Shown piece after piece: positions 37,446 through 49,270 of a stretch of DNA of 56,179 nt. The stretch covers positions 1 through 56,179 of the forward strand of contig JAJPRD010000007.1 of the NCBI GenBank assembly GCA_023700255.1, given 5' to 3'. A model generated the notes under the pieces. That model was not told the DNA's origin, did not search any database, and saw only the letters and a program-made list of their open reading frames with translations. The DNA is from Candidatus Thalassarchaeaceae archaeon (GTDB taxonomy: Archaea > Thermoplasmatota > Poseidoniia > Poseidoniales > Thalassarchaeaceae). The position numbers and the translations under genes are program-made. Position 1 is the stretch's first letter; every line of letters starts with the position of its first letter.

Positions 37446-38312
37446 TTACTCATTGAGTCTATCAATAAGATCTGCTTTTTTACCAGATACTGGCTTCCCT
37501 GCAGCCTTGAGTAACTCCTTTAATTGAGGTACAGTCATAGATGAATAGTCAATATTTTCTGGTTCTTCAACTTTAACATCGGATTCTTCTTCTGAATCCG
37601 CATCATCAATAGATTCGGTGTCATCAACTTTTAGTGATGATTTAGCAGCCTCATTATCTTCTTTCTCTTGTGCATGTATTTCATCAAGAGTAGGTCCATC
37701 CTCAACTATAACTCCAGCTTGAATAAGCTGTGTTCGACGAATAACTACTAATTTGACAGGTTGTATTTTAGAAACTGCCTCTTTGATCTTTGTTTCAAGA
37801 GTACCATCTAACGTAGCTGCTTGAAGTTGGAACCAAGTAGATGTTGCTCCAGTTGTTAGAATAACTTCTCTAGCCAAAGTCCTCATTTGTTGTTTCTGAC
37901 TTGCCTTGATTCTAGCTCTAGAAATCATTAGTGGTTTGAAACGAACATAGTAACCATCTTCAGTTATGACATCAATGGTATCATCAATTTTACCACGGTC
38001 TCGCCTTACTTGTCTTCGCACATGATCTTTTAATAATTCATGACCTACAAATTCTGTAATTGCGTCATTACCTAAAACATCGATGACTCTGAATACAACC
38101 TTAACATGCATCTTTGAAAAATCGCCATCTAGTTCATTTTGAATAACTTCATAGTGTCTACCAATCAGTTGTTCAGGTTCTTCTGATAGAGTCTCCCCAA
38201 TTACTCTAAATGACCATGGAGTTCGAGGTGCCCTAATTGTGTACCATCGCTTGGACTTCCACTTGTCTCTCTGTTTACGTGCCGCTGCTCTTGCTGATGC
38301 TCCTTTTGCCAT
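37446..38312 (-). CDS. rps3ae: 30S ribosomal protein S3Ae (eS1) with acidic linker and C-terminal SAP-like domain
   Basis: KRWYTIRAPRTPWSFRVIGETLSEEPEQLIGRHYEV..., RRDRGKIDDTIDVITEDGYYVRFKPLMISRARIKASQKQQMR; then the SAP-like YSSMTVPQLKELLKAAGKPVSGKKADLIDRLNE. Start reassigned to MAKGASAR. Confidence 0.93.
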   Translation of the reverse strand: MAKGASARAAARKQRDKWKSKRWYTIRAPRTPWSFRVIGETLSEEPEQLIGRHYEVIQNELDGDFSKMHVKVVFRVIDVLGNDAITEFVGHELLKDHVRRQVRRDRGKIDDTIDVITEDGYYVRFKPLMISRARIKASQKQQMRTLAREVILTTGATSTWFQLQAATLDGTLETKIKEAVSKIQPVKLVVIRRTQLIQAGVIVEDGPTLDEIHAQEKEDNEAAKSSLKVDDTESIDDADSEEESDVKVEEPENIDYSSMTVPQLKELLKAAGKPVSGKKADLIDRLNE

Positions 38313-38456
38313 TTTCAACGACTCCTTATGTACCGGGGGCTGCCCCGTTTGCGAGCCATGCGACTTTCCTTGACTATATGAACGGAACGTAATAAACACA
38401 GTTAGAAACATATTGAAAAGCGTCGCATTCAAGACTAGAAGGTCTCAGGAATAGAC

Positions 38457-40287: not shown

Positions 40288-41277
40288 TTATTTCTTTCCA
40301 CGTATAGTCCCTAATTTACGAGGTTGTTTTTTACCTCTGGTAGATTTAATAACTATTGATGAGGAATCACCATTCAATGCGCCACCAAGTGTTACTGAAC
40401 CACTTTCTAAAAGTTGAGATGCTAACGAATTAGCCATATCTTCATCTTCACTAGGTTTCTTTAAAGCATCTTTAACTGATTGATTATGATCTTTTATTAC
40501 TTTCACACGTTCTTCTTCAACTGCTTTCATCTCATCCCTGATTTCATTCACTTGACTAATTAACTCACTCATATTTGCATGGACCTCATTAGCAGATTCC
40601 CTACACGTAACATATGCTGCGTGTAGTCTATCGGCTTCCGCGCGTAAGAAGTCCCTTTCAGCAAGCATAGGTTTCACATCTTCCCATATGGCATCAGCTT
40701 TCTTATGAAAGTCAATCATTTCTTGGTGAGCATTATCTGCTTCGGATTTCAACAGACGAATTGAACCATCCATATCTCCAAGATCTATGTTAATAAGTTC
40801 AAATTCTTCCACTGAAGGCATTAATTCATTTCTTTTCGTAATTAGTACTTTCAACTTTTTCAAAAGTTTATTTTCTGTTTCTAAAATTAAACGACCATCG
40901 GTCATCATTGTAGTTTCAATATTCTCTATTTCGTTAATAATTTCAGATAATTGGAAAATTACTGACTTAGACTCTTTAGCGTCACTCCTCTTACCTTTGT
41001 TTTGATTTATCAATTCGCGAATTTGTGTTTGTATCTCATCTCTTTTGGCCTTACAAATTTGAGCCTGATCACGAACTTGTTTTTGCTCATCTAATTTTTC
41101 TTTGATAGATTCACGAATCTCTTTACTTTGTTCCTGAAGTGCATTTCGAGAATCCGCTGCACGTCGAGCATCCTCATTGAAAGAATTCCTTTGATCCTTC
41201 ATTCTTCGAAGTTTAGTTTCCATAGCATGCAATCTTGTTCTAAGGTCATCCTCAGGGTTCTGCTGCTCATCAGTCAC
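40288..41277 (-). CDS. Coiled-coil protein A (COG1340-like)
   Basis: Near-continuous heptad-rich sequence; RNALQEQSKEIRESIKEKLDEQKQVRDQAQ; EADRLHAAYV shared in form with EADLLHNKYV of 47442-48308; basic tail GKKQPRKLGTIRGKK. Confidence 0.75.
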   Translation of the reverse strand: MTDEQQNPEDDLRTRLHAMETKLRRMKDQRNSFNEDARRAADSRNALQEQSKEIRESIKEKLDEQKQVRDQAQICKAKRDEIQTQIRELINQNKGKRSDAKESKSVIFQLSEIINEIENIETTMMTDGRLILETENKLLKKLKVLITKRNELMPSVEEFELINIDLGDMDGSIRLLKSEADNAHQEMIDFHKKADAIWEDVKPMLAERDFLRAEADRLHAAYVTCRESANEVHANMSELISQVNEIRDEMKAVEEERVKVIKDHNQSVKDALKKPSEDEDMANSLASQLLESGSVTLGGALNGDSSSIVIKSTRGKKQPRKLGTIRGKK

Positions 41278-41320
41278 GAGTCGCCGAGCATGACACCCTT
41301 CTTCAAAGGAACTACTCGAT

Positions 41321-42895
41321 TCATAGACCTAAAAGAGATGTGAAAAACGGTAGTATAGGGGATAAAATTGCGATACCAGCACCTACTAAGAAAACCGCAC
41401 CTATAGATAGCCTCAACCTTGTAAAGAGATCTGCTCTATTTTGAACTGTTAAAACTCGTCCACTGAGTAGGTTACCATCCTCATCTTCTAACCTTACAGT
41501 CACTGTCGCTTCTCCAGTTTCTTCAGGCAATAAACTTTGCCAAATTATTTTTGTTGATTCAAGGACTAAAGGAAGCTTATGAATAGAGGATTTACCGGAA
41601 ACATCATTCAATAACTCATTACAAGGGTCCACTCTAAGTTTGTATACACAGCCAGATGGTCTGAAATCAGGAGTTTGAATTTTAAGAATTAGATTAATAG
41701 GTTCAGAACTATGATTTAGTACATAAGCAAATAAATTCGCCTGACCAACGACTAAATTTTCCATATCTACATCGAACCATATTTTATGATTAAATCCACT
41801 ATCAATTTTCATTCTTAGACGATCATGTAATCTGAAAAACGATGCGCATTGATCTCGGGCCCTGATAATTAGACGCTCCCAGGTTTCTTCACCAAGTTCA
41901 GGATGACGGAATAATTCATCAATAATATGAGCAGGCATCATAATTTCCAACTCAGATCTAAAAGATGATTCATCGATATAACCAGATCTCCTTAGATGTA
42001 ATAAATGGAGCAATTTTTCCTGTAATTCAGAGATACTAGTTCCTTCATTTACTGAATGCTGAATCGATCTTAAATAATCCGAAATCCTTACAGAAAGAAG
42101 GGGGTCAACATGAGCACTAATTACATCGCTGAAGGGTCTTTTTAACAGGGCTGGATGGATAGGAGGGGAAAAGGAATCAAGCATACCCCAAGTTTCACAG
42201 GTATTGAAGCGGGAACGATTTGACACCAGATGCACACCATGACCTGAAAGTAAGAAACCGGTTGAAAAAGCTAAAAGAACCGAATTACCACTAACCAAAT
42301 CAGAGAATTGGAGGCTGCATATAAGGAATATTCCTGAAAGAAACATCAGGAAAGTTGAAGCGATAACTTGTCGGAAAGAACCGTCGATTGTTTCTTTCAT
42401 TTCCGCATATCCATGAGCACTTTTGAAAGTTAAACCAGTTTTAGTCAGTCTTTTAGATTGAAGATTAAATATTCTTCGAGTCATAGAAATTAGTAAGAGT
42501 AATAATGACAATAGACCTAAATCAGCAATTATAAAGAAAAATGCTAGGTAATAGAATCCAACTTCAATGCTTAGTTCAATAGGAATAACCGGATAGACAT
42601 GATCAACCCACCAATCTGGCTCAGTGCCAATGAATGAATTAGCCAAACCATATAATATCATAACTAATATTGGAATTATTAATACAAACCTCAGGCCTCT
42701 GCTTATGAATAAACGATCTAATTTTACTAAGTTACGCTCATGTTCTTGAAGACGAATTATAGTTTTTAAAATTTCACTATCATCATTATTCATAACTTGA
42801 TTAGATGTTTTCGAAGAGAGATTGGGTGCTTCAGGAATATTAGAACCTAGATCATCGGCAATATCATTAAGATTAGATCCTTGATTATCAATCAT
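41321..42895 (-). CDS. Large membrane protein of unknown function
   Basis: Several TM segments in the N-terminal half plus a C-terminal TM (LRLSIGAVFLVGAGIAILSPILPFF); helical and beta-rich regions between. Confidence 0.65.
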   Translation of the reverse strand: MIDNQGSNLNDIADDLGSNIPEAPNLSSKTSNQVMNNDDSEILKTIIRLQEHERNLVKLDRLFISRGLRFVLIIPILVMILYGLANSFIGTEPDWWVDHVYPVIPIELSIEVGFYYLAFFFIIADLGLLSLLLLLISMTRRIFNLQSKRLTKTGLTFKSAHGYAEMKETIDGSFRQVIASTFLMFLSGIFLICSLQFSDLVSGNSVLLAFSTGFLLSGHGVHLVSNRSRFNTCETWGMLDSFSPPIHPALLKRPFSDVISAHVDPLLSVRISDYLRSIQHSVNEGTSISELQEKLLHLLHLRRSGYIDESSFRSELEIMMPAHIIDELFRHPELGEETWERLIIRARDQCASFFRLHDRLRMKIDSGFNHKIWFDVDMENLVVGQANLFAYVLNHSSEPINLILKIQTPDFRPSGCVYKLRVDPCNELLNDVSGKSSIHKLPLVLESTKIIWQSLLPEETGEATVTVRLEDEDGNLLSGRVLTVQNRADLFTRLRLSIGAVFLVGAGIAILSPILPFFTSLLGL

Positions 42896-42910
42896 ATTTC
42901 CACCAACAGT

Positions 42911-43558
42911 TCATTCAATTCTAACTATTATTTTGAAACTTAATTCTCGAGAAAATTGAATCACACAACCATCACAATAATATTTATCAGATTCTTTACG
43001 TATCTTAGAACCTATACTAAGTCCGACACCGTCTAAGGTTTTTATTGCCACACTACTTGATAGAATCAACTCAATTATTGCATCTGTATTTTCTGGCAAG
43101 GCAGATATTGGGAGTAAGTTATTACGCCCTGATACCATTAAATTCCGGTCAACTAAAGGTATGAGAGAACCCTCTTTATTTCGTTCAGGATAACCAAGCA
43201 TTCGATCTATTGATGCCTCTAAATCATTATCGATATTATGTTCCAATTTGCAAGCTGCAGAATCAACATCACCCTCATATCTAATCACATCAGATAGGAG
43301 AATTCGAAGAAGTTCTTCTCTACGTTTGAGGCTTGATGCATGCTTGAAACCCAAAGAGGTCAACCTACATCCTTTGTAAGGGATATAAGTCAAATAGTCC
43401 CTATTTGATAATCGTTGAATCATTTCGGTAGTGGATGCAGCACTAACACTCATTAATTCCGCTAATTGAGATGTTTTAACTATCTCATCTGGCTGATTAA
43501 AATGTGCTTCGAATATTCTTTTAAGGTACATTTCTTCGAATTCACTTAATTCTGACAT
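42911..43558 (-). CDS. DtxR/MntR-family transcriptional regulator
   Basis: FEEMYLKRIFEA...VKTSQLAELMSVSAASTTEMIQRLSNRDYLTYIPYKGCRLTSLGFKHA...CKLEHNIDNDLEASIDRMLGYPERNKEGSLIP. Confidence 0.85.
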   Translation of the reverse strand: MSELSEFEEMYLKRIFEAHFNQPDEIVKTSQLAELMSVSAASTTEMIQRLSNRDYLTYIPYKGCRLTSLGFKHASSLKRREELLRILLSDVIRYEGDVDSAACKLEHNIDNDLEASIDRMLGYPERNKEGSLIPLVDRNLMVSGRNNLLPISALPENTDAIIELILSSSVAIKTLDGVGLSIGSKIRKESDKYYCDGCVIQFSRELSFKIIVRIE

Positions 43559-43568
43559 AAAAAATACC

Positions 43569-45452
43569 TCAACCTAGTTTTGCTATGAATTCGGCCCTAC
43601 AAGCAGGACACCTTGACCTAATAGGCCTCTTATCAAGAGGCACTCTAAGAGTTTGTTCACATCGAGGACAAGGTAGCAAATCGCTTTCCGAATAAGATTC
43701 CAAGGCTAAATTATTATTTATTTGATCAGAGACTTTGGGAATTGGTGAAGATTTCTCATCTTTAATACCTACAGATTCAGATTGAGAAAATTGCATAGTA
43801 CATGCTGGGCACTTAACTAATCCCTCATGAGTTGAAGGAATGTTCAATCTTTGGCTACAACTGGGACAGCTGACTTCTTTCTTTTCATCTGGTCTAAGAG
43901 AATTGGAACCCCCTCTCACTGGAAGTTTGTTGCGACTCAAAGATGAGAAAGTAGAGGGGGTGTTTTGAGACACAACTCTAAACACTACTAAGCTAGCCAT
44001 AACTATGGCTAATCCTGATAATGCTCCATATAGTGCAGCATAAATATTGAATGGAAGGGTGAAACTTGTACTACTTCCAGAGTCTATAATAATAGATGTT
44101 TGATTAGTAGTAGTTAATTCATCCATTGTCCATATAAATTTTATATCTGTTGTCAGGGAGTATTCCCAGGATGTTATCTCGATAACACCCGAGACGCTGC
44201 TTCCTCCATTAATTGCAGAAACAGGACGCTCAGAAAATACAGCATCATTCGCTATTGCGACTACTCTTAGTAAACCTGATGATGAACGTTCTGTACCACT
44301 ATTTTGAAGAATATAATTGATAAATACTGTATCGCCTACTGAAACAGATTCAGGTGATATATTAGTGATCATTATTGAGGGGATAATTAGTGGAGGTGAT
44401 AACTCAATGATTACCTCTGCATCTCCGTTAATAGATAACCACCCATCAGCAGAAACCACTAATTTGAGACGACTAGCATCAGGATGGCCAAGATCAAGAT
44501 TCAAGTTCCTTATCCCAGGATTCAAATCCACAGTAAATATCTGATAGAGAGAATAATCATTTCCAGATTTCATTAAAACAGATACGGTAGCACTACGGTT
44601 TAATCCCGAGCTAAGAGATATAGATACATCTAGATTCAATCCCTCTTGCAATGTCCAGGACACCTGTTCAATACTATTCACAATCTCTTGAGACTCTTGT
44701 ATTTCCAAAAAAGAAGTTCCATTGAGAGAGGTATCAATCCCTCCATGGGAACTTAAAATTGCCCATTTAATAGATTGTGAGCCAGAAATTAATTGTGTGA
44801 AAGATGCAGATACTTCTCTGCTTGACCCTGGTGATATACTTACAGCATCACCTAGAACAATAATTGTACCATCATTTTTCATTAACTCCAGTTGGACAGA
44901 ATTAGTATTAACTCCCTGGTTATGAACTAAGATTGATGCAATTAACTCATCGCCAACATGAGCAGGTTGTCCTAATAATACGAGATTTGCAGCTCCTGCA
45001 GATGTGAAATTCACCGGATTAGGGCCAACTCGAATCGTGATAATTTCCTCATTAAGGGTATTATTTATTATAAGTTTACAAAAAATAACACCTTCATCTA
45101 ATGGTCCGAAAAACACCTCTACGTCAGATATAGATTGATTTCCAGATAAAACACCTGAATGACCACCATACCATAGCCCGGAATTACCAAAACTAAAACT
45201 CCAATAGGCATTATTAGAAGAGAGATTAGAGTTATACACCGGTATATTCAGGCTGAGATAGTCACCATCAGATGCAGATTCGTTCCCACTACTTTGTAAC
45301 GAATTACCATCGAAATAATCTAATGACCAATTACTACCCTCTGAAATTTCAAAATCACTATCTTCGGCAGACGCGGTGTGAGTAAAGAATATCAATAAAA
45401 TCGCAAATAAGAACAAACATCTCAACAAAGAAACTGGAGCACTTCTCACCAT
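43569..45452 (-). CDS. Surface protein: signal peptide, CARDB-like repeats, single TM, two C-terminal zinc ribbons
   Basis: Signal LLRCLFLFAILLIFFTHTASA; TM FNIYAALYGALSGLAIVMASLVVFRVV; CPSCSQRLNIPSTHEGLVKCPACTMQF and CPRCEQTLRVPLDKRPIRSRCPACRAEF. Start trimmed to MVRSAPV. Confidence 0.75.
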   Translation of the reverse strand: MVRSAPVSLLRCLFLFAILLIFFTHTASAEDSDFEISEGSNWSLDYFDGNSLQSSGNESASDGDYLSLNIPVYNSNLSSNNAYWSFSFGNSGLWYGGHSGVLSGNQSISDVEVFFGPLDEGVIFCKLIINNTLNEEIITIRVGPNPVNFTSAGAANLVLLGQPAHVGDELIASILVHNQGVNTNSVQLELMKNDGTIIVLGDAVSISPGSSREVSASFTQLISGSQSIKWAILSSHGGIDTSLNGTSFLEIQESQEIVNSIEQVSWTLQEGLNLDVSISLSSGLNRSATVSVLMKSGNDYSLYQIFTVDLNPGIRNLNLDLGHPDASRLKLVVSADGWLSINGDAEVIIELSPPLIIPSIMITNISPESVSVGDTVFINYILQNSGTERSSSGLLRVVAIANDAVFSERPVSAINGGSSVSGVIEITSWEYSLTTDIKFIWTMDELTTTNQTSIIIDSGSSTSFTLPFNIYAALYGALSGLAIVMASLVVFRVVSQNTPSTFSSLSRNKLPVRGGSNSLRPDEKKEVSCPSCSQRLNIPSTHEGLVKCPACTMQFSQSESVGIKDEKSSPIPKVSDQINNNLALESYSESDLLPCPRCEQTLRVPLDKRPIRSRCPACRAEFIAKLG

Positions 45453-45547
45453 TGGGTAATACTCGGTAATAACAACCGTATGAATGAAACCCCTCTTTGA
45501 GGTCACATAGTGAACTTTATTGACACCTTTAGGTAGCCCCGAATACA

Positions 45548-46393
45548 ATGGACACAGAGCAACTGCTTACAGTCTCGCCCGAAGACATGGCCAAAGCCTT
45601 GCTTGCAAGGAGACAATTGTTGAAACAACAGTTACCAACTGTGATTAGAACTTTAGAGGCAGAAGAACAAAAATTAGCACCAAAGGCTAAAAAGGCGCTA
45701 GAAAGTAACAAAATAATTAACACTAAAGTCAGTGAACTTAAAGACAAAAGAAATAATGCTCAAAAAAAAGCAAATGAACTTCTGAAGATTGTCAAAGAAA
45801 GTAAAGAAAACTTAATGCAAGCGGATGGAATGATAAATCTAGACCCATTATGGAAAAAAGAAAAATTGTTTGAAGAGATTGAGGATATAGAAAAGAAGAT
45901 TGAAACCTCTGCTTTGGATCATAAAGCAGAGAGAAAACTCCTTGATAGGAGGAAAAAACTCATTGAAACAAATGATAAATGGTTGAAGGAAAGAAGAGAA
46001 TCAAATCCTGAAATGGTGACTTATATAAATGCCAGGAGAGAGATGAATTCACTATATCGGGATGCCGATAAATCACACCGAAATATGCTTGATGGTGTAG
46101 AAAAAGCACAACCACAACATGAGAAACAAATGAACATTAGAAATGAACTAAAGGAAATAAGAAGGCAATTAGATAGAGCTAAAGAGTTGCTCTCACAATC
46201 CGATAAAGGCATTAATCATTGGGAAAGAAGATTAGAAAAAGGTTTTGGAGAACTAGATGGTGGATTTAGCGATCTGTTAGAGGCTCAAAAGAGAGTATCT
46301 CAAGGTGGTGATTCTTCATTTGCAAGGAAAAAAAAATCTAAGGTTGTAAAGAAAAAGACACCAATTAATATTCCAAAGGAGGAGGAAGAATGA
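45548..46393 (+). CDS. Coiled-coil protein B
   Basis: Charged helical sequence throughout (PTVIRTLEAEEQKLAPKAKKALESNKIINTKVSELKDKRNNAQKKANELLK); Lys-rich tail. Confidence 0.7.
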   Translation: MDTEQLLTVSPEDMAKALLARRQLLKQQLPTVIRTLEAEEQKLAPKAKKALESNKIINTKVSELKDKRNNAQKKANELLKIVKESKENLMQADGMINLDPLWKKEKLFEEIEDIEKKIETSALDHKAERKLLDRRKKLIETNDKWLKERRESNPEMVTYINARREMNSLYRDADKSHRNMLDGVEKAQPQHEKQMNIRNELKEIRRQLDRAKELLSQSDKGINHWERRLEKGFGELDGGFSDLLEAQKRVSQGGDSSFARKKKSKVVKKKTPINIPKEEEE

Positions 46394-47361
46394 GTGATTC
46401 AGAACCTGAAACGAGTATTTTCGCTGATTTGGAAGAAAAAGATCGTGAAGAAATTGAACAAACAGCAAGCGACTTAGAAAAACAAATTAGAAGTATTGAA
46501 GATGAATACGAATCATTAAGATCTGAAAGAAAAAATCAGATAGAAATTGTTAAATCACTCAGAATAGAAGTGGGAGAACTTGAGGCTGTTAATGATGAAA
46601 GAAGAGGTTTGCTAAAGAAATTCCATGAAGCCAGAAAATTGGCAGAAAAAGCGAAACAAAAGAGAGACGAAGTAAATCGTTCAATCCCACCACCATCTAG
46701 TATTCTGTTGGAATGGATGGGAGAGACTCATCAAAAATTGGTTACAATAGATAACGACTTGACAGCAGTACCTACGCTTAATCGTGAAATTGATATGTTC
46801 AAAAGATTTTTTGAATTACAGGCAGCATATACTAGGAAACTAGATTCAGAAGTTCATCATTCCGAATATTTAGTACAGAATGTAGAGATTAGAAAAATTA
46901 TAAAGGAACTAGATTCAACGAGAAAATCTGATAAAAAAGAAAGTTCGGACGCTTCTGAAGAGAAGGAAGGGATAAATCCTGCAAATCGTGCAGATATTAG
47001 GAAAATTAGTAAAAGAATAGATAAAATAGATAAAAAATTAGACAAGATATCTGATGAAAAGAAGAATTTTAGAAAAGAAATAACACGTATTCGCTCATAT
47101 CTAAGGATGACTAGCAGTTTCGGTAAGGTAATTAAGATATCAGAAGTTAAAGATAGAGCAAAAAGTGGAGAGTCGCTAAATACTCAGGAACTAGGCGCAT
47201 TATTGAGATCAGGAGGGTTATCTGAATTAACCAAGGATTCCTCGAAATCAGTAAAGAAAAAATCATCAAAGAAAATCTCAGGTAAGAAGCAACATAGAAG
47301 ACTTGGGGTTGCTAGAGGAGGAGCAAGGTTAGGTTCACGTGCATCTAAACGAGATGAATAG
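46390..47361 (+). CDS. Coiled-coil protein C
   Basis: ATGA overlap with the preceding gene; strong SD (aaggaggagga); charged helical sequence; tail SGESLNTQELGALLRSGGL...GKKQHRRLGVARGG. Confidence 0.75.
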   Translation: MSDSEPETSIFADLEEKDREEIEQTASDLEKQIRSIEDEYESLRSERKNQIEIVKSLRIEVGELEAVNDERRGLLKKFHEARKLAEKAKQKRDEVNRSIPPPSSILLEWMGETHQKLVTIDNDLTAVPTLNREIDMFKRFFELQAAYTRKLDSEVHHSEYLVQNVEIRKIIKELDSTRKSDKKESSDASEEKEGINPANRADIRKISKRIDKIDKKLDKISDEKKNFRKEITRIRSYLRMTSSFGKVIKISEVKDRAKSGESLNTQELGALLRSGGLSELTKDSSKSVKKKSSKKISGKKQHRRLGVARGGARLGSRASKRDE

Positions 47362-47402
47362 AGCAGTTGCCCGTTTTACCCCTTCCCTATGCCCTTATAT
47401 CA

Positions 47403-47441
47403 GATTCTTAAGTCGGAGAATATGAAGGAGGCCTAAGAATC
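47403..47441 (+). promoter_or_regulatory. Inverted repeat GATTCTTA...TAAGAATC enclosing the Shine-Dalgarno (GGAGG) and abutting the ATG of 47442-48308
   Basis: Perfect 8-bp arms at 47403-47410 and 47434-47441; SD at 47427-47431. Confidence 0.55.
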
Positions 47442-48308
47442 ATGAATTTTGACGAGGTTAGGAACATCCTTCGCCCTAAAAGTAGCACTCTTGATGAGAA
47501 GCTTTCACTATTTAGAGAAGACAGAGATAACTGGAATGGTAAAGTCAAAAAATACCTAACAGAAAGAAATGAGATCAATAGACAAGTGAAGGAATTGATT
47601 AGTGAGGTTCAGAACCAGAAAGTAATACGAGATGAAGCAAATTCGAAGGTAAAGGAACTGAAAATTATTAGAGCAGAGAGATCTGCTGTTCTCAAACAAC
47701 TGCGTGGGGAACTGCAAGAAAAAAAACCTGCAGAACAGCCTAAAAAACAAGAAAAAAAAGAGAAAACACGTAATGAAAGAGTTATTCGCAGTGATATTGA
47801 TAAAATGGATATGAAATTTAACCATGGGCATTTCGATGGTAAAGAAAGAAATTTCGAAAGACAGATGAAAAAACTCTATCAAGAATTAAAGGATATTAAA
47901 GCAAATAAAGTTGTGAATATATTCTCAGACTTAGAATCAAGTATTCGAAAAGCAGCTAAATCACAGGAAGAAGCCCATAAACTGGTCGAAGAAGCAGTGT
48001 CTATTGCTCAAGAATCACACGATCTAATGATTGAACTGTCTGAAGAAGTAGATAGACTTCGTGCTAAAGCTAATTTATCTCAAGAAGGAGTTATTCGCTC
48101 GAAAAGAGAAGCGGATTTATTACATAATAAATATGTAGTATCTCTAAGAAGCATACACTCAATACAAGATCTTTTCAAGGCAATGGACGCAAAGGAAAGA
48201 AATGTAGATGATGATGGTACTAGATTAGAAGTAACTGATCTTATGTCCAGATTGATGTCAGGGGACACATTATCTACCGATGAATTAATGGCTTTACAAA
48301 GAAATTAA
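47442..48308 (+). CDS. Coiled-coil protein D (COG1340-like)
   Basis: RNEINRQVKELISEVQNQKVIRDEANSKVKELKIIRAERSAVLKQLRGEL; EADLLHNKYV; tail SGDTLSTDELMALQRN. Confidence 0.75.
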   Translation: MNFDEVRNILRPKSSTLDEKLSLFREDRDNWNGKVKKYLTERNEINRQVKELISEVQNQKVIRDEANSKVKELKIIRAERSAVLKQLRGELQEKKPAEQPKKQEKKEKTRNERVIRSDIDKMDMKFNHGHFDGKERNFERQMKKLYQELKDIKANKVVNIFSDLESSIRKAAKSQEEAHKLVEEAVSIAQESHDLMIELSEEVDRLRAKANLSQEGVIRSKREADLLHNKYVVSLRSIHSIQDLFKAMDAKERNVDDDGTRLEVTDLMSRLMSGDTLSTDELMALQRN

Positions 48309-49270
48309 TTCTGAAAATCATAAGTTTTTCCATTTCGGCTATGGAGTATCTTCTTTTCACCGTCCTCAAAAATCAATATCCAAGCAGGTATTTGAACAAA
48401 AAAAGAATTGAGATTCAATGAATCTAGATCCGCACGCCACCACTCAAGCATACTTGATTTAACCTTATCAGCACCATCATAAAATTGTTCTTTTTTCCTA
48501 TAATCAAGCAATGGTTTAAGATTTATTTTTAATTTATCTATAGTATGCCATTTTTCAACAAAAGGTTCTATTTTACGTAAATCAGGAGAATTAGCAAGTA
48601 TTTCATCAAAATTAAATTCATAAATTTTACTAGACCAAGGGTCTTCAATAAATGACCATTCCTTAGTTTCAGTAATTGAATTAGGTCCAGACATCAGAGC
48701 AGAAACTTCCCATAACTTCACATTAATCAAGACTGGTAATGTGTTCAACATACTCAGAGATTCACTATCTAGCCAATCATTTACTCGGATTAATGGTTTT
48801 AATGTAATATTTTGATATGGTGTTGAGTCATCAACTGATTCATTTAGATTTATAATCGATTTATTAGAAGTTTGATTATTTGACTTCACTATTAAGTCAC
48901 CGCGTAAAACTGCTTCACCGATCCAGCGTGAAAGTTTTTCAGGCCCCCATGCATTGATTGTGATATCCTTTGAGATATCTTGAAAAATATCCTCAGAGAA
49001 ATATCGCTCACTAAGAATCCAATGGCGGTCGCCAGGAGCATCAATTGACCACCTCTCTATTTCATTCTTTGAAATAGGTAAAATATCATCTTGAACATGC
49101 CATATATATACGGGAGAAATACCTTTGTCATCGAAGTCAAGCAATTTTTCAGCTATACCAAGACAACGAAAACCATAGATATGGAAAGACTCAGATACTG
49201 GTTCTAATCTAACAGTTCGTGAGGCAAGTATGCCACGAACTGTTTCTTCCATGGTGTCGGATTGTATCAT
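48305..49270 (-). CDS. Protein of unknown function
   Basis: Intact 321 aa ORF between convergent coiled-coil gene and rpl30e; motif NAWGPEKLSRWIGEAVLRGDL. Confidence 0.6.
   Translation of the reverse strand: MIQSDTMEETVRGILASRTVRLEPVSESFHIYGFRCLGIAEKLLDFDDKGISPVYIWHVQDDILPISKNEIERWSIDAPGDRHWILSERYFSEDIFQDISKDITINAWGPEKLSRWIGEAVLRGDLIVKSNNQTSNKSIINLNESVDDSTPYQNITLKPLIRVNDWLDSESLSMLNTLPVLINVKLWEVSALMSGPNSITETKEWSFIEDPWSSKIYEFNFDEILANSPDLRKIEPFVEKWHTIDKLKINLKPLLDYRKKEQFYDGADKVKSSMLEWWRADLDSLNLNSFFVQIPAWILIFEDGEKKILHSRNGKTYDFQN

Follow-up and report, generated by a model that had tools for sequence, protein, structure and literature searches.

In the 56,179-nt stretch of archaeal DNA analysed here (the window), seven genes form a block that, judged by its recurring gene order, is a real, order-wide module of the Poseidoniales, an abundant order of marine archaea, and is probably co-regulated. 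Four of its products, A, B, C and D, are coiled-coil paralogs of the DUF7121/COG1340 family; the others are a DtxR-family regulator and two membrane proteins, MP and SURF. We tentatively favor a reading in which they make up a metal-gated, membrane-linked hetero-oligomeric coiled-coil complex that acts on RNA or ribosomes. What is new is the composition, which is like that of no described system, while the protein family and the enzyme found on C in a sister family were already known; the literature searched, including a search on Poseidoniales, contained no description of the block. The original prediction had placed the seven genes on two divergent arms read from an intergenic gap, and the window sequence confirmed every open reading frame at its predicted position, with SURF-DtxR-MP-A on the minus strand, B-C-D on the plus strand and a divergent promoter gap at 45453–45547. 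It had missed the four-way paralogy, the palindrome in the divergent gap and the enzyme on the sister-family C.

A check of synteny in Poseidoniales found the neighborhood conserved past close strains: the order A-MP-DtxR-SURF/B-C-D was recovered, in both families of the order, from almost every genus sampled. The complete seven-gene order is present in 51 of 80 named loci, and nearly all of the remaining named loci show part of that order, most often where the contig breaks off inside the block. Exceptions are genus g7 of the window's family, which is without MP, and some g13 and g20 genomes, in which B or C is reduced. B and C overlap by 4 nt (ATGA) in the window and by exactly 4 nt in 85 of ~102 loci; together with the recurrence of the same order across genera, this overlap argues that the arrangement is not due to chance. 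On the question of unrelated contexts elsewhere, the original prediction is partly contradicted: A-type and D-type were the only paralogs encountered outside the order, and there they have different neighbors.

Profile comparisons show that A (40288–41277, minus strand), B (45548–46393, plus), C (46390–47361, plus) and D (47442–48308, plus) are paralogs of a single family. Against the Pfam DUF7121 model (PF23435, cut-off 29 bits), D (2.2e-11, 44.2 bits) and B (2.5e-8, 34.1 bits) score over the cut-off, A scores below it (1.1e-5, 25.5 bits), and the divergent C has no match. Profile–profile links among the four run along their length, that between B and C being the weakest; hhalign gave 1e-20 for A with D, 9e-48 and 1e-17 for A and B, respectively, with A-type proteins of other orders, and 4e-56 and 2e-13 for D and C with D-type proteins of other orders. 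Reversed-sequence controls were almost all null; the one exception came from comparing the small set of outside A-type proteins with the reverse of that set. In a phylogenetic tree A, B, C and D each formed one clade, with D, the ortholog of a phylum-wide D-type, grouping with that type, and B is specific to Poseidoniales. A G-x-x-L-S/T motif follows the coiled coil at the C-terminus in the consensus of A, C, D and the outside A-type and D-type proteins, and more weakly in B; in D the conserved C-terminal motif reads GxTLSTDELMxLQ. The tails of A, which has a long coiled coil, and of C are strongly basic, and no RNA-binding domain was detected in the window's A–D. The coiled coils of the original prediction are genuine, as an AlphaFold model of D (mean pLDDT 84) is a long helical hairpin with helices at 3–94 and 135–252; a PDB profile search with D gave no match.

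We take COG1340/DUF7121, the family of D, to be probably arCOG01159. Coiled-coil arCOG01159 tops a list of uncharacterised archaeal proteins, being present in 492/524 genomes, and has SerB as a reported partner (PMC6393860), and COG1340 has been listed among conserved archaeal groups whose function is unknown (PMC1322226). SerB was not found beside D in the genomes examined here; our literature searches found no description of DUF7121 and mentions of COG1340 only as a family of unknown function. Other orders mostly have a single copy or two, with different neighbors, whereas in the block four copies stand together with a regulator and two membrane proteins.

A pointer to function comes from the C protein of Poseidoniaceae. 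In 7 of the 10 genera sampled from that family, C is ~700 aa long and carries N-terminal palm and PAP-associated domains that, by their profile matches and conserved residues, are a complete Cid1/TUT7-type RNA nucleotidyltransferase domain. This region matched PF22600 (2e-30) and PF03828 (2e-15) in Pfam and human TUT7 (9e-48) and Cid1 (4e-40) in the PDB, with TUT4 and plant URT1 among its other near solved relatives, and the catalytic GS..DxD and third Asp are invariant in all 6 of 6 sequences. The predicted enzyme shares its domains and intact catalytic residues with Cid1, TUT4, TUT7 and GLD-2 but, unlike them, is archaeal and joined to a DUF7121 coiled coil. Among solved structures its nearest relatives are eukaryotic, and the literature searched contained no relevant description of an archaeal TUTase; a virus-borne TUTase was considered, and the one viral scan confirmed none. 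The distribution of the domain was assessed by a pattern scan that took a single genome from each species and found 101 relatives; the best 80 of these 101 are named as Poseidoniaceae, other Poseidoniales or unspecified marine Euryarchaeota. Named matches in the sister family are Poseidoniaceae (e.g., Candidatus Poseidonia alphae and the MG-II chromosome CM001443), which makes the window's family, probably Thalassarchaeaceae (MGIIb), a sister to it within the order. Within the phylum, strong matches to the domain occurred only in Poseidoniaceae; CCA-adding enzymes are among the weak matches in other groups. In the window, C has no Pfam match and no N-terminal enzyme domain, and the domain had no match in the window's genome or family; it may have been gained in part of Poseidoniaceae or lost in the window's family. 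The fusion, found in one branch, is a hint that the DUF7121/COG1340 family works on RNA or translation.

Separately, Poseidoniaceae carry a cassette between C and D that encodes a RimI-like GNAT protein, a small protein with a weak LAMTOR5 match in one case and, often, a KaiC-like ATPase (L051:3477-7296, L053:12137-13831), and PurP often follows D in this family.

The contexts of A-type and D-type genes outside the order point, on balance and with moderate confidence, to RNA or translation. In the sister order D-type genes follow L1-L10-P1 and their products often have an N-terminal SAP domain; in family f13 D-type lies near an MBF1-like HTH gene, Sua5 and an M24 peptidase, and at one further locus (L078) it adjoins SRP54. 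In several genomes of family f5, D-type is tail to tail with the gene of a CCA-adding enzyme (L081:7604-9001, L082:8039-9352), which is convergent with D-type and outside its operon. Several A-type and D-type neighbors are metabolic, among them purine genes, an aldolase and mevalonate genes. We also observed in family f13 that A-type follows a gene for a ~970-aa CARDB surface protein (L068:12074-18641, L069-L073) and precedes genes for HMG-CoA synthase, thiolase and a ChsH2-type OB-fold protein.

The membrane partners are MP (41321–42895, minus) and SURF (43569–45452, minus; ATG start codon at 45450–45452). MP has about five transmembrane segments, the last at its C-end, a helical middle and an Ig-like beta-sandwich at about 370–487 in an AlphaFold model (mean pLDDT 82, pTM 0.75), and its matches in a fold search were mostly Ig-like domains. 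No Pfam family was found in 18 members, PDB sequences gave one weak match, to CysZ (E 0.008), and among 147 genomes sampled MP is confined to Poseidoniales. SURF comprises a signal peptide, a region resembling CARDB (Pfam CARDB 1.4e-4, 22.4 bits versus a cut-off of 22.7), one transmembrane segment and two C-terminal zinc ribbons, which are predicted to lie on the inner side of the membrane and in which all eight Cys are conserved without exception across 17 aligned members; searches against the PDB gave nothing convincing. In its beta-repeat outer part, single transmembrane segment and CxxC pairs it is like archaeal CARDB-type surface proteins with MJ0042-like zinc ribbons, although its matches to these families (CARDB, MJ0042-like) fall just under the curated cut-offs, and it is distinguished by always being the first minus-arm gene of the block in Poseidoniales. 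A defense system was considered and found little support, the sole PADLOC match being a weak one of SURF residues 521–621, the zinc-ribbon region, to the candidate PDC-S64 (3e-6); the block's other proteins matched no PADLOC model. In nearly all Poseidoniales genomes sampled, a paralog of MP lies in a second conserved operon (G000:C48:395-1267; L183-L189) with genes for an RFC-like AAA protein, an FAD oxidoreductase, HIT, an acyltransferase, DUF2299 and a large CARDB surface protein, a mixture that offers no functional clue.

These proteins lend plausibility to the envelope link made in the original prediction, and one may postulate that the coiled coils build a filament or tether at the cell cortex, anchored through MP and SURF, and play no part in RNA function, the TUTase fusion of one family being a lineage-specific add-on. 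The membrane proteins are in the block almost always, MP is exclusive to Poseidoniales, its second copy likewise has a CARDB surface protein in the same operon, and in another family A-type follows such a protein. DUF7121 occurs, however, in every one of the 117 genomes that were sampled from the phylum, in most of them with neither MP nor SURF, and this scenario leaves the TUTase fusion, the SAP domain and the translation neighbors unexplained, so that we consider it unlikely, if worth keeping in view. The cytoskeletal or nucleoid role that was attached to the scaffold found no support: the proteins belong to no filament family and have no ATPase head, the fold search returned generic coiled coils only, and a cytoskeletal assignment was rejected for want of any family support.

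The regulator (42911–43558, minus) is DtxR-like, as predicted, with an HTH and a metal/dimerisation domain that are both over cut-off (PF01325 Fe_dep_repress, 9e-14, 51.9 bits; PF02742 Fe_dep_repr_C, 6.5e-13, 48.9 bits). Its CxxEH motif is CKLEH in the window, with C, E and H, which we take to be metal ligands, kept in nearly all relatives, the Cys being lost in genus g2. It scored far below the NCBIfam MntR/DtxR equivalog cut-offs (77.3 vs 350, 46.7 vs 138 and 38.3 vs 290 bits). A 17-bp palindrome with the consensus AGGTCAC-RTA-GTGACCT, whose half-site resembles the DtxR box, lies 30–33 nt upstream of the B start in 39 genomes that belong to genera g1, g3, g6 and g8 of the window's family. 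The window's copy, AGGTCAC-ATA-GTGAACT in the divergent promoter (45500–45516), is one mismatch from perfect; its right end is overlapped by the TATA-like box CTTTAT of B (45515–45520, plus), placed alike in relatives, and the palindrome occupies the expected TFB/TBP site of B. Of the sites listed across the family, all 31 perfect copies and 8 with one mismatch are at the B promoter, and none of the perfect copies found was elsewhere. In the window's genus 11 of 13 genomes have the palindrome, with exactly one site per genome; a few other sites in g1, g3, g6 and g8, each with one mismatch, are located elsewhere, and one-mismatch sites in the remaining genera of the family look like chance. Because all perfect copies are at the B promoter, the palindrome fits a dedicated operator, to which the block's own DtxR probably binds. 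One Poseidoniaceae group has a different palindrome, ACCCACCCTTAAGGGTGGGT or close variants, in the same promoter place (L115, L117, L126, L137, L144, L149), and most other Poseidoniaceae have no clear palindrome there.

A metal-type regulator next to invariant Cys could also signify a unit for metal homeostasis or sensing, in which DtxR regulates a metal-handling envelope complex and the SURF zinc ribbons are the metal site. The regulator's over-cut-off domains and kept CxxEH, the eight Cys of SURF and the dedicated palindrome beside the regulator's own operon are all consistent with this idea. The block nevertheless contains no transporter, permease or chaperone, and MP has no convincing transporter likeness; metal transport was itself rejected, given that MP has only the weak CysZ match (E 0.008) and mostly Ig-like matches in the fold search. 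The single strong site per genome is also at odds with metal regulators, which normally control several uptake genes: the block's regulator shares both Pfam domains and the CxxEH motif with DtxR, IdeR and MntR repressors but has apparently a single local target and no iron or manganese regulon. We regard this explanation as improbable.

A nucleoid-organising or SMC-accessory module appears very improbable. Weak SMC coiled-coil matches were obtained, SMC arms are among the top foldseek matches (E 0.005 to 0.06), and the SAP domain present in one order could bind DNA. Such matches are generic to coiled coils, however, and this role was rejected accordingly; SMC models match in their coiled-coil part alone and score far under the cut-off, the SMC/Rad50 ATPase head and hinge are absent, as is a kleisin, and no chromosome-function neighbors were seen. 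Least probable, and already disfavored, is that these are ordinary housekeeping neighbors held together by slow rearrangement with no joint function, for although the flanks PdxS, ferredoxin, RPS3ae, L30e and RNAP are also kept in the window's family, in Poseidoniaceae the flanks vary and the seven-gene core stays constant, and the 4-nt coupling, the paralogy and the palindrome between the arms speak for a unit.

We return to a membrane-linked complex acting on RNA or ribosomes as our preferred reading. The sequences themselves show the order-wide synteny, the four-way paralogy, the conserved B/C overlap and the palindrome; the part played by the regulator and the RNA role are inferred. Under this model the block would be one co-regulated unit of four DUF7121/COG1340 paralogs and two membrane partners, in which metal-bound DtxR would bind the palindrome and repress both arms. 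B with C, and A with D, would assemble via helical hairpins and shared C-terminal motifs, the SURF zinc ribbons and the inner domain of MP would tie the complex to the membrane, and RNA or ribosomes would be its target. The Poseidoniaceae version, with a predicted terminal nucleotidyltransferase built into C, could add tails to RNA 3′ ends; the version of the window's family, which is without the enzyme domain, would be an RNA- or ribosome-binding scaffold only. The TUTase fused to C and part of the outside contexts point to RNA or translation rather than to the cytoskeleton or nucleoid, and the SAP domain on the sister-order D and the basic tails of A and C also count for this reading. Against it stand the metabolic neighbors, the convergent CCA-adding enzyme and the lack of a detected RNA-binding domain in A–D, and the presence of other or no clear palindromes in other genera counts against the DtxR–palindrome step. 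As the window's C is without the enzyme domain, which has no match in its own family, the RNA role that we infer for the block rests on relatives. A more specific version, a metal-gated, membrane-anchored RNA 3′-tailing or ribosome-handling machine with a DUF7121 body to which a eukaryote-type TUTase was added in Poseidoniaceae, is conceivable but doubtful.

If true, this more specific version would be the first lead to the function of a coiled-coil family that almost all archaea have. Here the family has been multiplied to four, stands behind an apparent dedicated operator and, in one branch, is fused to a predicted terminal nucleotidyltransferase. This combination turns an open question on a widespread archaeal family into one that can be assayed, through RNA binding, tailing activity and operator binding.

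Two further observations concern the flanks of the block in the window. An orphan 321-aa gene between D and L30e (48305–49270), with no Pfam or NCBIfam match, is kept in the window's family. Ribosomal protein S3Ae (37446–38432) has a C-terminal SAP domain (1.6e-13), which may be compared with the SAP domain on the sister-order D-type.
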